This document shows, one piece after another, positions 42,794-48,851 of a stretch of DNA of 64,000 nucleotides; position 1 is the stretch's first letter, and each line of letters begins with the position of its first letter. Below the pieces are notes generated by a model. The model saw nothing but the letters and a program-made list of their open reading frames with translations, had not been told where the DNA came from and did not search any database. The position numbers and the translations under genes were made by a program. Origin of the DNA: an uncultured Gammaproteobacteria bacterium (lineage in GTDB: Bacteria; Pseudomonadota; Gammaproteobacteria; Arenicellales; JAANXG01). The stretch covers positions 1 through 64,000 of the forward strand of contig CAMYKK010000017.1 in NCBI GenBank assembly GCA_947258975.1. The letters are read 5' to 3'.

Positions 42794-44815
42794 ATGCCGT
42801 GTTCGTCGTATCACGAGCCGGAGGGAAATGAATTGCAAAAATCAAACAAGAAACCCGTGACCAGCAGGCTCAGTCGAAACGCGAATCGTTGGCAGGCCGA
42901 TGATGAGATCTATCGTGATCTGTTTGAAAACGCCACTGATATTGTTTTCACCACGGATCTGTCGGGCCACTTTCTGGATGGAAATCGAGCTGTTGAACGC
43001 TTGTTGGGATACACCGTAGAGCAAGCAAAAGAATTGACGTGGGACAAACTGGTGGCACCGTACGACATGCCGAAGGCAACCACCGTTCTGAAGCGGCATG
43101 CCAAAGGGGAGCGACACGTAAATTATGAACTGGACGTGATAACAAGAGACGGCGACATTCGCGCATTCGAAATCGGCTCGCGGCCGATTTTTGACGCCGA
43201 GAAAATTATCGGTTTCCATGGCATCGCGCGCGATATCACCGAGCGAAAACGCATACAAAGCGAACTAATCCAAGCCCGCAAAGAGGCCGAACAAGCAAAT
43301 CGAGCAAAATCATCTTTCCTCGCCAACATGAGCCATGAAATACGCACCCCCATAAACGGCATTATTGGATTTATGTCATTGATGGCGAAAACAGATCTCA
43401 CCAAAGATCAGCAGGAGTATCTGCGGCCGATGGAGGAGTCGGCGCGGGCACTCATGAAAATCATCAACGATATTCTGGATCTATCGAAAATCGAAGCGGG
43501 CCAATTAGTTCTCGAAGACGAGATACTCAGTCTCGGCTCGGTAATAGAATCTACCGTTGCCCTGCTCCGGCCGCTGGCCCAGGAGAAAGGATTGACGTTG
43601 TCTGTGTGCGTCGACTCCGGCATATCGGATCGCCTCAGGGGCGATCCCACTCGGATCGGCCAGATAATCGCCAATCTGGTCAACAATGCGCTCAAGTTCA
43701 CCGATCACGGCGGTGTCATGATCAGCGCCAAGCTGCAATCGTGTGACGGCTCACGGGCGATGGTTTCGATTTGTGTGATGGATACCGGTATCGGAGTCCC
43801 CGCGGGAGAGACGCAAACCTTGTTTGCGCCATTCCAGCAATCGGACACCAGCATGAACCGGCGCTTTGGCGGCACCGGCCTTGGGCTAACGATCACGCAA
43901 ACATTGGTGCAGGCGATGGGTGGTGATATCGACATTGACAGCGTGCGCGATCAGTACACCAAGGTCAACGTACGTTTACCGCTGACGGTGGCGGCGCAAC
44001 ACGGGAGCGACACTGCCGATCGTCGCGGGCCCGCGGACTTCAGCGGCGCAGGAATCCGGGTGTTGGTGGTCGACGACAATGATATAAATCGCCGGTTTCT
44101 GAGCGCGCTGCTACGGCATTATCAGTGCCAGGTGCACGAGGTCGAATCCGGGCGCCGGGCGCTGACTGCGTGCCAGCGGCAGACCTTCGACATTGTAATG
44201 ATGGATGTCCATATGGCGGATATGGATGGCATCGAAACCACAAGGCGCCTGAAACAAGCCCCCAGCGTGAATACCGCGACACCGGTGATCGCGGTATCGG
44301 CGGATGTGCTGGAAACCAGCCGTGCGCACTTCATGGAGGCGGGTATCGACGGATTTCTGCCTAAACCGCTCACCGAAGAGCTGTTGATCGTCGAGCTGCG
44401 GCGCTGGTTTCCCCAGCGTTGTCGGGTTACCGAATATAATGCACCGCCGGCTAAGCCCACCGCGGCCAACGATGAAGATCCAGTGCTCGACGTCAACGCC
44501 GGTGTCCGCATGGCGGCGGGCGATCGAACGCTATGGCGCAGCAGCCTCGAGGATCTCGTTGCCGGCCTGCCAACCCAGCTGGAGGTCGTTCGCGATTCGC
44601 TGGATACGGAGTCGTTCGCGGTCGCCCAGCAGGTGGCGCATCGTATCGCCGGCGCTGCAGGATACGTCGCCGCGGCGGCGCTGCATGGGGCGGCACGGGC
44701 GCTGGAAAAGGCGTGCCGCGCCCGCCACGGCGACGATGCGCACAAATGGCTGCAAGTGCTCAGTTTCGAGCTCGAGCGGGTGCGCGGCCATGCTGCCCGC
44801 AAGCCGAAACCGTGA
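42794..44815 (+). CDS. Hybrid sensor histidine kinase with REC and Hpt domains (BarA-like layout)
   Basis: A 673-residue soluble protein: PAS (about 40-150), coiled linker, kinase core with H-box FLANMSHEIRTPINGIIGF and ATPase motifs NLVNNALKF, DTGIGVP, GTGLGLTIT, then a receiver (VVDDNDINRR, phospho-Asp in MMDVHMADMDG) and a C-terminal Hpt with AHRIAGAAGY. All parts for a His-Asp-His relay are in one chain; the final Asp may be on the divergent REC-LuxR regulator. No transmembrane segment, so the signal is cytoplasmic. Confidence 0.9.
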   Translation: MPCSSYHEPEGNELQKSNKKPVTSRLSRNANRWQADDEIYRDLFENATDIVFTTDLSGHFLDGNRAVERLLGYTVEQAKELTWDKLVAPYDMPKATTVLKRHAKGERHVNYELDVITRDGDIRAFEIGSRPIFDAEKIIGFHGIARDITERKRIQSELIQARKEAEQANRAKSSFLANMSHEIRTPINGIIGFMSLMAKTDLTKDQQEYLRPMEESARALMKIINDILDLSKIEAGQLVLEDEILSLGSVIESTVALLRPLAQEKGLTLSVCVDSGISDRLRGDPTRIGQIIANLVNNALKFTDHGGVMISAKLQSCDGSRAMVSICVMDTGIGVPAGETQTLFAPFQQSDTSMNRRFGGTGLGLTITQTLVQAMGGDIDIDSVRDQYTKVNVRLPLTVAAQHGSDTADRRGPADFSGAGIRVLVVDDNDINRRFLSALLRHYQCQVHEVESGRRALTACQRQTFDIVMMDVHMADMDGIETTRRLKQAPSVNTATPVIAVSADVLETSRAHFMEAGIDGFLPKPLTEELLIVELRRWFPQRCRVTEYNAPPAKPTAANDEDPVLDVNAGVRMAAGDRTLWRSSLEDLVAGLPTQLEVVRDSLDTESFAVAQQVAHRIAGAAGYVAAAALHGAARALEKACRARHGDDAHKWLQVLSFELERVRGHAARKPKP

Positions 44816-44845
44816 CCCATCGAAACGGGTTGCGACATCGTCAAC

Positions 44846-44880
44846 AATAAAAAGCCCGTGCCCCTTGCGGGACACGGGCT
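44846..44880 (-). terminator. Rho-independent terminator of the phaR end (minus strand)
   Basis: Arms 44853-44860 and 44873-44880, with further pairing inside, are followed on the minus strand by TTTTTATTG. There is no T-run on the plus side, so it serves leftward transcripts coming from phaR and from the promoter at 45031-45059. Confidence 0.85.
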
Positions 44881-45024
44881 CCAGGTTGCGCCGAAGCGCA
44901 CCAGAGGGCACTCGGTCATCAGCTCGTTGACGTGCTGATCGGTGGCGATCCTTTGTTAAATCAGACAGTTACGCCTGATTTCTTGTCTCGCACACGGGTG
45001 AATTTGTGCAATGCAGCAATGTTG
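44853..45024 (-). ncRNA. Candidate structured small RNA in the PHB locus
   Basis: A minus-strand stretch of about 170-180 bases between a good sigma-70 promoter (45031-45059) and the terminator at 44846-44880. Hairpins on the way: perfect 7-bp stem 44958-44964/44975-44981; 6-bp stem 44918-44923/44934-44939; stem 44884-44902 with a TTCG loop and one bulge. No start codon follows the AAAGGA at about 44953, and a frame from 44919 would run through the terminator. It could instead be a 3' UTR piece of phaR or the wreck of a phasin gene. Confidence 0.5.
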
Positions 45025-45059
45025 CGTTGCAGCATAAAAGATCCGCCGCCGCGTGTCAA
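45020..45059 (-). promoter_or_regulatory. Sigma-70 promoter with overlapping PhaR-like TGC-rich operator
   Basis: On the minus strand TTGACA (45059-45054), 17 bases, TATGCT (45036-45031). The start region is a TGC/GCA-rich block; on the plus strand TGTTGCGTTGCA (45020-45031) matches TGTTGCGCTGCA at 47708-47719 in the phaA/phaE intergenic region. PhaR repressors bind such TGC-rich sites in front of phasin and pha genes. Confidence 0.6.
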
Positions 45060-45103
45060 CCCCGGATCAGCCGCCCGCGGCTATGGCGACCAGCGCTTGG
45101 CCG

Positions 45104-45598
45104 CTACTCGTCTTTCTTGCCCCCTTTTTTCGTGCCGTTATCGACGCGCAACCCGGCGGCGCGAAAAAATTGGTTCTGCATGTCGTGCCAAATGTTGAGA
45201 TTACGTTGGGTCATCTCGCTGATGGCGGAAATGGGTTTGCCCTGCAACTCCATGGCGGTACGCATCTGGTCCTGGAATGCCTTTTGTTGCTGATCAAACA
45301 AGCTCAGGCTGCGCTCCAAGTAGCCGCTGAACGTATCCTGCATGGATTCACCGTAGAAGCGGATGAACCGCATCAGGACATCCGTGGTGAACAGCGGTTT
45401 ACCCCCGCTTTCCTGGTCGGCGATGATCTGCAGCAAGATGTTGCGGGTAATTTCTTTGCCCGAATTGGCGTCACGTACCTCGAAGTTCACGTTGTCCAGC
45501 ACCAACTGCTGCAAATCCGCGAGGGTGATATAGCGACTTACTTCGGTGTCGTACAATCTCCGGTTCGGATATTTTTTGATGATGCGCGGTTTTGCCAC
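45104..45598 (-). CDS. phaR: PHB synthesis repressor PhaR
   Basis: A 164-residue regulator with the conserved N-terminal DNA-binding domain (RIIKKYPNRRLYDTEVSRYITL) and the central PHB-granule/accumulation domain (MRFIRFYGESMQDTFSGYLERS). In known systems it represses phasin genes until it is titrated by PHB granules. GTG start at 45598 after GAGAGG. Third gene of the leftward phaA-phaB-phaR group. Confidence 0.93.
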   Translation of the reverse strand: MAKPRIIKKYPNRRLYDTEVSRYITLADLQQLVLDNVNFEVRDANSGKEITRNILLQIIADQESGGKPLFTTDVLMRFIRFYGESMQDTFSGYLERSLSLFDQQQKAFQDQMRTAMELQGKPISAISEMTQRNLNIWHDMQNQFFRAAGLRVDNGTKKGGKKDE

Positions 45599-45616
45599 GA
45601 CTGCCTCTCTCTCTGT

Positions 45617-46339
45617 TTAATACATATGTTGGCCACCATTAATGGACAACGTCGAGCCGGTAATGAATCCGGCGTCGTCGGCGACCAAGAACAGTACGCT
45701 GCGGGCGATCTCACTAGCTTCTCCGAGCCGTCCTACGGGAATGGTTGCGATGATTTTCGCCAATACCTTCTCCGGTACTGCGCGCACCATTTCAGTGCCG
45801 ATGTATCCCGGCGCTACCGCGTTGACGGTGATACCCTTGGCGGCCCCTTCCAAAGCAAGGGCCTTGGTGAATCCGTGTATGCCGGACTTGGCGGACGCGT
45901 AGTTGACCTGGCCGTATTGGCCCGCTTGACCGTTCACCGAACCGATATTGACGATGCGGCCGAATCCCGCTGCGCGCATGCCCTCAATGACGCATCTGGA
46001 CATGTTGAAGCACGAGCTCAAGTTGGTTTGGATTACGGCGTTCCACTGCTCAAAACTCATTTTGTGCATGGTGCCGTCCCGGGTGATACCGGCGTTATTG
46101 ATTAGTACCTCCACCGGCCCAAGTTCCGCTTCCACCTGTTTCACTCCCTGTTGACACGACGCCATATCACCGACGTTCCATTTGTAGGCCGGGATGCCGG
46201 TGGCCTCGGTGAATTTCGCCGCCGCTTCATCATTCCCGCCATAATTCGCTGCTACTTTGTACCCAGCGTCTCTCAGCGTTTCGCAGATTGCCTCGCCTAT
46301 GCCTCGGGTGCCACCAGTTACCAGCGCAACTCTAGCCAT
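45617..46339 (-). CDS. phaB: NADPH-dependent acetoacetyl-CoA reductase
   Basis: A 240-residue SDR enzyme that makes (R)-3-hydroxybutyryl-CoA. Cofactor motif TGGTRGIG, NNAG strand, Ser-Tyr-Lys catalytic set (INIGSVNGQAGQYGQVNYASAKSG spanning about residues 133-156), and a C-terminal FITGSTLSINGGQHMY. GAGGAG ribosome-binding site. It lies between phaA and phaR. Confidence 0.96.
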   Translation of the reverse strand: MARVALVTGGTRGIGEAICETLRDAGYKVAANYGGNDEAAAKFTEATGIPAYKWNVGDMASCQQGVKQVEAELGPVEVLINNAGITRDGTMHKMSFEQWNAVIQTNLSSCFNMSRCVIEGMRAAGFGRIVNIGSVNGQAGQYGQVNYASAKSGIHGFTKALALEGAAKGITVNAVAPGYIGTEMVRAVPEKVLAKIIATIPVGRLGEASEIARSVLFLVADDAGFITGSTLSINGGQHMY

Positions 46340-46380
46340 GGTTATCTCCTCGTGTGATGGTTTTCATTCTAGGGTCTAGT

Positions 46381-47562
46381 TTACCGTTCAACTGCAATCG
46401 CGACGCCTTGACCGCCACCGATACATAAGGTTGCCAGTCCCTTGCTCGCATCCCGGCGTTTCATCTCATGCAGCAGGGTGACGAGTATCCGCGCACCCGA
46501 CGCGCCGATGGGATGCCCCAGGGCGATGGCGCCGCCGTTCACGTTTACTTTACCAGTGTCCCAGCCGAGGTCACAGTCCACCGACAACGATTGTGCCGCA
46601 AACGCCTCGTTGGCCTCGATCAAATCCAACTCGTCGACGGCCCACCCGGCCTTTTGCAGACAAATCCTCGACGCCGGGATCGGTCCGGTGCCCATGATCG
46701 CTGGATCCACGCCGGCGCTGCTGTATGCCACCACCTTTGCCAGTGGCGCAAGGCCCAGTTCCTTGGCCATGGACTCGCTCATCACCAGTGCCGCCGCCGC
46801 GCCGTCATTGATCCCGGATGCGTTGCCGGCGGTGACGGTGCCGTCTTTCTTGAATGCGGGGCGTAGTTTCGCCAGTCCGTCGGCGGTGGTCCCGTGGCGC
46901 GGGAATTCGTCGTGGTCGAACACGAGCGGCTCCCCCTTGCGTTGCGGGATCTCAACGGCAACGATTTCATCCTTGAAGCGCCCGGCATTTTGCGCCGCCT
47001 CGGCTTTCTGTTGTGACGCGGCGGCGAATTCGTCCTGTTGCTGTCGGTTGAATTCGTACTTTTGCACGATATTTTCTGCGGTCACGCCCATGTGGTAATC
47101 ATTGAAGGCATCCCACAGACCGTCGACAATCATACTGTCGATCAACTTCCAGTCACCCATCTTGACGCCGTTACGGGATTTGGGCAACACGTGGGGCGCC
47201 AGACTCATACTCTCCTGGCCACCGGCGATTATCACCTGTGCGTCGCCGCAGCGAATCGCCTGGGTCGCAAGATGCACTGCTTTCAGTCCGCTGCCGCATA
47301 CCTTGTTGATGGTCAGTGCCGGCACCGTGTGCGGCAGGCCTGCCTCGATCATCGTCTGACGCGCAGGATTCTGGCCGACACCTGCAGTCAATACCTGTCC
47401 CAAAATGATCTCGTCGATCTGCTCCGGTTTCACGCCGGTGCGATCGAGCAGGGAGGTGATGACTTTGGCGCCCAGGGTGGTCGCCGGCAGGTTGGACAGG
47501 GCGCCACTGAAATTGCCAATCGCCGTGCGTACGGCATCGACAATGACTACGTTATCGGTCAT
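46381..47562 (-). CDS. phaA: Acetyl-CoA acetyltransferase (beta-ketothiolase)
   Basis: A 393-residue thiolase for the first step of PHB synthesis. Catalytic Cys in [11 protein letters not shown], active-site His in [17 protein letters not shown], and C-terminal Cys in [10 protein letters not shown]. First gene of the leftward set, with a strong GAGGAGA site, divergent from phaE. Confidence 0.96.
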
Positions 47563-47707
47563 TCTTCGCGTCTCCTCATGATTTGTCGTGGTAGAGATGT
47601 CTGGGTTGCCGAAGGAGATAAAGCGGGAGCAGGCTCGTGGACCCAGCTGGCGCTTTGCCGGCCCGGCGGATGTGGAATGTTGATGATCGGCTTAGGGTAT
47701 AACAGAT

Positions 47708-47719
47708 TGTTGCGCTGCA
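47708..47719. promoter_or_regulatory. Candidate PhaR operator between phaA and phaE
   Basis: TGTTGCGCTGCA, just downstream of a possible -10 (TATAAC, 47698-47703). Ten of twelve or more bases are shared with the site at 45020-45031 (one mismatch). Placed to act on both divergent pha transcripts. Confidence 0.5.
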
Positions 47720-47804
47720 CAATCACAATCGTCTTGTTGATGCGGTTGCCTGGGCAACGACCGGCCATGCCTGGGATACGAGCCAGTTCTTTGGGTCGAT
47801 CGTA

Positions 47805-48851
47805 ATGACAAACAGCGCGCACAGTCAATGGTGGGACCAGTGGCTGCGGAACTGGCAGTCCCTTGCCGCGCCGCAGCGTCCCGCGAATCCGTGGGCGGCC
47901 GCGTTGGATGAGTGGTCGCGCGTGCTGTCGCCTCCTACTCCCAGCCATGCCGATGTGTTCGCCCGTATGTTGGCTCAAGGCAAATCATTCTTCGCGTTCG
48001 GCGACGCGTTGGGACAGTCCTTTGAGACGCACGATGAAGGTTTAGATGTCCAGGCCCTGTTCCTCCGCTCCCTGGAGAGCATGAAGCCGGGACTGGACGC
48101 GCACCTGTGGTCAGGAGCCTCGGCGCCGAGCGGGCTGTGGCAGCTGCCACTGGAGTCCTGGCAACAAACTGCGTCGATCTTGACCGGAATGCCCGTGGAC
48201 GCGCTGCACGGGGCAGCCGGTGGCGCGCCGACTTTACCGTGGTTGCAACAGCAACTCGAAAGGATGCTGGCGACACCTGGACTGGGCTATACCCGGGAAC
48301 ACCAAGAACAACTGCAGAAACTGGGCGGCCTCATGATCGCCTATCAAAAGGTGTTCAACGAGTACACAGCGGCTTACGCGGACATGGGAAAACGGTCCAT
48401 CGAGCGCGTAAAGGTACGCCTGAAGGAACGGGAGGCGGCAGGCGAGCCGCCCATCGACTCGACGAAAGAGTTGTTCGATCTGTGGGTCGATTGCAGCGAG
48501 GAGGTATATGCGGAATTTGTGATGAGTGATGCCTACGTGCGACTACACGGAGAGATGACCAATGCGCTGATGGCGCTCAAAATGCAGGAGCGAACCATAT
48601 TGGACGACAGCCTCGACGCGATGAATCTTCCAACCCGCCGGGAGATGGACACCCTGCTGCAGCGATTTCAACAGACGCGGCGCAACGACAAGGCATTGCA
48701 ATCCGAGATGTGGGCGCTGCAGACCAAACAAGCGGAACTTCAGGTGCGCATCGCGGCGCTGCAAGATTGCTTGAGCTCCGGTAAAAAGAAAAAGGCCAAA
48801 GCCAAAGCCAAAGCTAAAGCCAAAGCTAAAGCCAAGAAAAAGCGAACCTGA
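47805..48851 (+). CDS. phaE: Class III PHA synthase subunit PhaE, with lysine-alanine tail
   Basis: A 348-residue non-catalytic partner of PhaC, needed for synthase activity. The family region is present: NPWAAALDEW near the N terminus, YTREHQEQLQKLGGLMIAYQKVFNEY, ELFDLWVDCSEEVYAEF and a coiled C-terminal part (MDTLLQRFQQTRRNDK). The last 22 or so residues are KKKK(AK)7KKRT, encoded by a run of GCC/GCT-AAA units at 48795-48836. That histone-like tail is not part of the core family. phaC follows 12 bases later. Confidence 0.93.
   Translation: MTNSAHSQWWDQWLRNWQSLAAPQRPANPWAAALDEWSRVLSPPTPSHADVFARMLAQGKSFFAFGDALGQSFETHDEGLDVQALFLRSLESMKPGLDAHLWSGASAPSGLWQLPLESWQQTASILTGMPVDALHGAAGGAPTLPWLQQQLERMLATPGLGYTREHQEQLQKLGGLMIAYQKVFNEYTAAYADMGKRSIERVKVRLKEREAAGEPPIDSTKELFDLWVDCSEEVYAEFVMSDAYVRLHGEMTNALMALKMQERTILDDSLDAMNLPTRREMDTLLQRFQQTRRNDKALQSEMWALQTKQAELQVRIAALQDCLSSGKKKKAKAKAKAKAKAKAKKKRT
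48795..48836 (+). repeat. Seven tandem 6-bp units encoding Ala-Lys
   Basis: Units are GCCAAA or GCTAAA, the last GCCAAG. Being a short tandem array it can change length by slippage, always in frame. Confidence 0.85.

Follow-up and report, generated by a model that had tools for sequence, protein, structure and literature searches.

We conclude that the short minus-strand region downstream of phaR is quite probably a small RNA gene that arose from a phasin gene, one of the type called clade A below, whose promoter, operator and 3'UTR RNA were kept while its ORF was lost. The window, that is, the whole stretch of 64,000 nucleotides that was analysed, carries on its minus strand phaA (acetyl-CoA acetyltransferase, 46381–47562; NF004206, 688.4 bits for a cut-off of 688, and Pfam thiolase), phaB (acetoacetyl-CoA reductase, 45617–46339; TIGR01829, 348.2 bits, cut-off 302.1) and phaR (45104–45598; TIGR01848 PHA_reg_PhaR, 145.8 bits, cut-off 109.45, an equivalog-level match), which lies directly upstream of the RNA region. 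This region is the minus-strand gap from the phaR stop (45104) to the end (44815) of a convergent histidine kinase gene (42794–44815). Read along the minus strand, it contains a promoter, two TGC motifs, about 110 nt with two predicted hairpins, AGTGCCCTCTGGTGCGCTTCGGCGCA and a terminator. Both the window and the related locus L050 have this neighbouring kinase at full length; L056 has a 108-amino-acid fragment, in L048 the stretch ends within the gene, and no kinase was detected in L051. As stated in a preliminary description of this DNA, the region has no credible reading frame: none of the nine ORFs of at least 20 amino acids that overlap 44830–45103 is credible, since one minus-strand frame of 32 amino acids begins at the -35 box, the two others on that strand traverse the kinase gene in antisense, and the remaining six are read from the other strand. 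With no credible ORF here, and with the three phasins of this genome all falling outside clade A, the region itself does not qualify as phaP.

The phasin origin can be read in the other genomes of the family, which are drafts. In six of them (G006, G008, G009, G010, G011 and G012) a phasin ORF lies between the promoter and a conserved 26-nt block, so that the block belongs to the 3'UTR of that phasin; it stands just after the phasin stop codon in all six, and in all six the RNA has the 3'UTR origin and the mRNA's own terminator that characterize 3'UTR-derived sRNAs. The window and six relatives (G001–G005 and G007), which make up the window's genus and one sister genus, have phaR, the promoter and the block without the phasin. 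The distance from the inferred start to the block is 451–460 nt in the presence of the ORF and 86–127 nt in its absence, and all seven ORF-less genomes have kept the -10 box, its 17-nt spacing from the -35 box and one operator site or both. The preliminary description had proposed a small RNA and, as a fallback, the remains of phaP. The position of the region in the relatives' phasin slot, where the ORF is gone and promoter, operator and 3'UTR remain, bears out the fallback, and the small RNA, for which expression and PhaR control are predicted from the sequence, is supported as well, the two being the same thing. That description had also counted an intact phasin frame in close relatives against an RNA; such frames do exist in other genera of the family, but they do not refute it, because the 3'UTR block is what was kept. 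We disfavour its second fallback, an RNA derived from the 3'UTR of phaR, because phaR and the block have a separate promoter between them in 13 of 13 loci and because in L045 and L047 phaR is followed by a second phaB-like reductase gene, located between phaR and the phasin.

Two FastTree phylogenies bear on the direction of the change. A tree of PhaA, PhaB and PhaR groups the seven ORF-less genomes into one clade (0.998); G008 and G012 were left out of it for lack of residues (145 each). In a tree of 31 phasins, the six block-linked phasins and a phasin of G015 form clade A (0.977); G015 is a genome of another family, used as an outgroup, and its clade-A phasin lies about 2 kb from phaR. No phasin of the seven ORF-less genomes falls in clade A, and a clade-A profile built from five of the six block-linked phasins scores 206–216 bits in the six phasin-bearing genomes versus 24–68 bits in the seven ORF-less ones, where it detects phasins of other clades. 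As the ORF-less genomes are one clade and the outgroup has a clade-A phasin, loss of the ORF is the likely direction, and these sequences point to a single loss as the most likely course, in an ancestor that the window's genus shares with the sister genus. The clade-A ORF was not found elsewhere in the seven ORF-less draft genomes (74–97% complete), and no phasin remnant is recognizable in their spacers: the best match, in G002, has an E value of 0.006 over 25 residues and is on the opposite strand, and the others have E values of 0.14 or worse in what is a tiny database. One block-linked phasin, L041, scores above the Pfam cut-off (48.9 versus 24.9 bits) and below the NCBIfam phasin cut-off (23.9 versus 30.2 bits).

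The promoter described earlier, TTGACA (45054–45059, minus strand), 17 nt and TATGCT (45031–45036), is present and has the same layout in the 13 family loci, with TATGCT and the 17-nt spacing in all of them, TTGACA in 12 and TTGACG in one. It matches 10 of the 12 consensus bases and is the best of three promoter-like sites in 44700–48000, where 1.3 are expected by chance. Two copies of the PhaR-type motif YGCRNYGCR accompany it. Site 1 (45023–45031) overlaps the -10 box and is found at the same place in 10 of the 13 family loci, being unmatched in G002, G004 and G005, all three ORF-less; site 2 (45007–45015), 16 nt from site 1 (16–19 nt in relatives), is found in 12, the exception being the ORF-less genome G007, and every one of the 13 loci has at least one site. 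A third site lies in the phaA/phaE spacer (47711–47719), and the 11-of-12 match that the preliminary description reported between the two places, TGTTGCGTTGCA at 45020–45031 and TGTTGCGCTGCA at 47708–47719 on the plus strand, is real. The YGCRNYGCR core alone is weak evidence, because it has 77 matches in the window for about 73 expected; what argues for an operator is that two of them, separated by 16 nt, cover the -10 box and the start region and are maintained in relatives. The sequence TATGCTGCRNYGCR has 65 matches in the 13 genomes, versus 24 for the reversed control; four of the ten in the window's genome are this RNA and its three phasin genes, and the other six have no obvious relation to PHB. 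In the accessible text of the sources, the PhaR site of Sinorhizobium meliloti (PMC12542648) and the TGC-rich PhaR sites of Paracoccus and Rhodobacter (PMC10888616) agree with the motif of the window. These properties lead us to predict that PhaR binds to this promoter and probably controls it. At another place (L211, G000:C7:77436-77454) two divergent -10/PhaR-type sites are joined by ATATGCTGCAGTGCAGCATAT, palindromic in all but its central base; only frames of 67–74 amino acids start within 400 nt on either side, and this is possibly another PhaR-controlled non-coding transcript. A TATGCTGCGCTGCG site (L213, G000:C29:30954) stands 51 nt before a frame which, from its motifs, we take to be an ABC-transporter ATP-binding protein, and it is either a PhaR target or a chance occurrence.

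The conserved block, AGUGCCCUCUGGUGCGCUUCGGCGCA (44887–44912, minus strand), was recognized by comparison within the family and comprises a candidate seed and a UUCG hairpin. All 26 positions are identical in the seven ORF-less genomes and in four of the six phasin-bearing ones; two positions deviate in G009 and one in G010, so that the family never shows more than two changes, and positions 1–10 are unchanged in 12 of 13 genomes. The block also stands a few nucleotides before the terminator stem in 13 of 13. This last property could be explained if the block were a cis element of phasin mRNAs, acting in their stability, termination or localization, and the ORF-less copies functionless, decaying remnants, a proposal that would also suit the negative outcome of the target searches described below. 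However, a remnant should drift like the four-fold sites of phaA, phaB and phaR, where agreement with the window is 0.37 (119/322) in G007, 0.42 (146/345) in G003 and 0.56, 0.62, 0.68 and 0.73 in the other four ORF-less relatives, whereas the block is identical in all seven ORF-less genomes and the promoter elements named above are kept with it; this reading is quite unlikely. Letter-by-letter invariance, together with the palindromic arms TGCGC-N4-GCGCA, would also suit a DNA site bound by a regulator, with no RNA element. Against such a site, there is one match per genome in similarity searches, a few nucleotides before the terminator stem in every genome, conservation reaches 12 nt past the palindrome, and the loop is C(UUCG)G, a stable tetraloop, which makes a pure DNA site very improbable. 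Finally, the block might encode a small peptide from its GTG (VPSGALRRN...): in the window this frame is open through the terminator (126-amino-acid ORF), and the two changes in G009 are GTG to TTG and Ser to Ser. Nevertheless, seven degenerate wobble positions of this frame are unchanged in 12 of 13 genomes, when such sites are far diverged in phaA, phaB and phaR, no consistent Shine-Dalgarno sequence precedes the GTG as judged by eye, the change in G010 is Leu to Phe, and there are indels after the block. We have rejected coding constraint on the grounds of the invariant wobble positions, the lack of a consistent Shine-Dalgarno sequence and the indels, and consider a peptide extremely improbable. 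The conservation of the block is best accounted for by an RNA, first part of a phasin mRNA and then made from the promoter that the phasin left behind.

The predicted RNA is about 179 nt long (45024–44846, minus strand), with a start placed 7 nt after the -10 box. It folds at -72 kcal/mol, compared with a mean of -53.4 for shuffled sequences (z -4.3; 0 of 200 shuffles as stable), and much of this stability must come from the terminator. The terminator with a T-run that had been described (44846–44882) is indeed strong, a stem of 14 pairs (44882–44851), nine of them G-C, being followed by the T-run; terminator-like sites in the same scan number 6 versus 3.3 expected. Of three hairpins described earlier, the two upstream ones are predicted. 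Hairpin 1, AAAUCAGGC-GUAACU-GUCUGAUUU (44958–44981), has a double change in 3 of its 10 pairs among five sequences of the genus, and 5 of the 10 are broken in at least one sequence; hairpin 2, GAUCAG...CUGAUG (44918–44939), is weakly predicted and is absent from the five-sequence consensus fold. These 5' hairpins are poorly kept among relatives, G003 and G007 folding otherwise. In G003 (L049) the shortened middle of the ORF-less RNA contains a Shine-Dalgarno-complementary run, CCTCCTCCCC, not seen in the middles of its relatives. The third, TTCG, hairpin is predicted in the isolated 70-nt 3' part and not in the full-length fold of the window RNA, in which a competing hairpin over the same bases is preferred. 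Folded alone, this 70-nt element gives the UUCG hairpin at a probability of at least 0.95 in 11 of the 13 genomes, and positions 1–7 of the block are then unpaired at 0.74 or more. The competing hairpin pairs AGUGCCC with GGUGCGCU and hides the seed in the full-length window RNA and in two isolated elements (L005 and L010, from G001 and G007), and in the isolated folds of L011 and L013 positions 8–10 of the block are largely paired.

Covariation, proposed in the preliminary description as a check, was found in part: the terminator stem has double changes in 5 of 13 pairs, and the UUCG stem provides none because it hardly varies. Taken together, the UUCG helix and the terminator stem pair in 98.6% of cells, with 17 cells showing double changes, and 0 of 500 shuffles reach as high for either; two of five measures, the number of pairs with double changes (5; 34/500) and the number of pair types (307/500), fall within the shuffles, and the relatedness of the sequences inflates such counts.

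The element appears to be specific to one family. A search with the 231-nt region matched all 13 family genomes, counting its own, and none of the 47 others searched in the order; four of five relatives within the genus matched over most of its length, and G003 and the other genera over about 64–75 nt. When a collection of 84,980 species was scanned for TGCCCTCNGGTGCGNTTCGNCGCA, 12 loci were recovered, all in MAGs titled gammaproteobacterial or, once, Arenicellales, and we infer that these are the 12 family relatives. A covariance model, R1, had matches with an E value of 0.001 or better in 89 of 369 genomes of the class, the window scoring 95.1 bits and the next best 38.9. None of the 29 best of these loci (L058–L086) has GTGCCCTCTGGTGCG with up to three changes, and we have taken the R1 matches outside the window for G+C-rich hairpins rather than homologues, on the strength of the 29 best that were inspected. 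Neither the 47 order genomes, the species scan nor the best covariance-model loci yielded the block outside the family. In Rfam searches, nothing scored at the family cut-off in the window (Rfam 15) or in nine phasin loci; the ten permissive matches obtained for the region (CRISPR-DR64, ffh, RybB and others), none of which is named MmgR or alpha-r8, stay at or below about two thirds of the required score and were rejected.

The genome encodes Hfq (PF17209, 103.4 bits), which together with the U-tailed terminator is what is looked for in an Hfq-dependent sRNA gene, and the CCCUCU stretch of the block is complementary to AGAGGG. All searches for targets were negative. The perfect 11-nt anti-seed has 16 matches in the 13 genomes, 12 of which are the block itself and four scattered, for 21 with the reversed control; the 9-nt anti-seed is found before ATG 37 times versus 30 for the control. 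Eight genes of the PHB neighbourhood (phaR, 13 sequences; phaB, 9; phaA, phaE and phaC, 8 each; the response regulator, 7; speE, 2; the kinase, 1) gave no convincing pairing, the lowest p value, 0.04 for speE, being based on two sequences, uncorrected and not counted, and phasins B and C showed no convincing pairing either. The PHB depolymerase family PF06850 was matched in one of the 13 family genomes. That no mRNA target emerged, and that the hairpin is nearly invariant in sequence and not only in shape, would fit an RNA that mainly partners a protein, as a sponge or scaffold, for instance at the PHB granule. Yet no positive pointer to a protein was found, and an unpaired stretch, a hairpin and a U-tailed terminator are the usual anatomy of base-pairing sRNAs; we regard a protein partner as unlikely and favour an RNA that pairs with mRNAs.

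Sequence comparison thus leads us to a model for transcription, PhaR control, Hfq binding and pairing in trans. The ancestor would have been a phasin mRNA, probably PhaR-controlled, whose 3'UTR held a functional RNA composed of a mostly unpaired AGUGCCC(UCU) stretch, the UUCG hairpin and the terminator. The ORF would then have been lost in the common ancestor, promoter, operator and 3'UTR RNA being kept. At present, PhaR, bound to the TGC sites that span the -10 box and the start region, would block transcription; upon PHB accumulation PhaR would move to the granule and the RNA would be made. The terminator would shield its 3' part, to which Hfq would probably bind, and the CCCUCU stretch would pair with Shine-Dalgarno-like sequences of target mRNAs.

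Sixty-seven phasin 3'UTRs of the order, drawn from 80 phasin matches in 109 genomes, were examined: six hold the block, and 14 others have a TCCTCCT or CTCCTCC run within 120 nt of the stop codon. Shuffled sequences give a mean of 1.6 such runs and a maximum of 6 in 200, a comparison that overstates independence because many of the 14 are orthologues. The 14 are spread over five families of the order: the run-bearing phasins are L027, L034, L022, L025, L023, L019 and L017 in clade B of the window's family, and L024, L031, L145, L137, L142, L136 and L146 in other families. Pyrimidine runs of the UCCUCCU type are complementary to Shine-Dalgarno sequences, and they constitute a second candidate kind of phasin 3'UTR sRNA; in this order, 3'UTR sRNAs may commonly stem from phasin mRNAs.

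We lean, by a little, towards the broader interpretation that a storage-granule gene turned here into a regulatory RNA, loss of the ORF revealing a trans function of the 3'UTR in its own right, and that phasin mRNAs in this order may routinely carry Shine-Dalgarno-complementary sRNAs that report PHB status. The 'before' and 'after' states share a single syntenic slot in a single family, and promoter, RNA and missing ORF can all be read there. Should the RNA be functional in the ORF-less genus, one would expect the phasin 3'UTR of the sister genera to regulate the same pairing partners. Our literature search found neither a phasin 3'UTR sRNA nor an sRNA originating by ORF loss, but subscription papers were mostly outside that search, and absence from print is not established.

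Among known systems, MicL, encoded in cutC, is an independently transcribed 3'UTR sRNA; like the window RNA, it is driven by a promoter of its own, but that promoter lies inside the parent gene, whereas the one used here would be that of the parent gene itself, which moved close to the 3'UTR when the ORF was lost. OppZ, NarS and SdhX, sRNAs of Gram-negative bacteria, resemble the window RNA in their location at the 3' end of an mRNA, after the stop codon; in the cases described in the accessible part of PMC8406224 the parent ORF is present and the sRNA is released by cleavage, whereas seven genomes here lack the ORF, and the promoter that once served the mRNA would yield the RNA as a primary transcript. 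The same source, as far as its accessible text goes, proposes that cis-acting 3'UTRs and independent 3'UTR RNAs form a continuum. With PhaR-regulated phasin genes (accessible parts of PMC12542648 and PMC10888616), the region shares a TGC-type operator at the promoter and an expected expression when PHB sequesters PhaR, but it encodes no phasin. A further parallel concerns MmgR of S. meliloti, an alpha-r8 sRNA which, according to the accessible text of PMC8401924 and PMC12542648, is repressed by PhaR/AniA, has a PhaR-type promoter motif, acts in PHB storage and lowers phasin levels. The putative sRNA gene of the window likewise has a PhaR-type promoter motif, PhaR control being a prediction in our case. 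MmgR differs in being 77 nt long and conserved in alphaproteobacteria, and the accessible text of these two articles reports no descent from a phasin 3'UTR; as described, the two RNAs are apparently unrelated. If our model is true, the window RNA would be a second PhaR-controlled RNA in PHB physiology, alongside MmgR.
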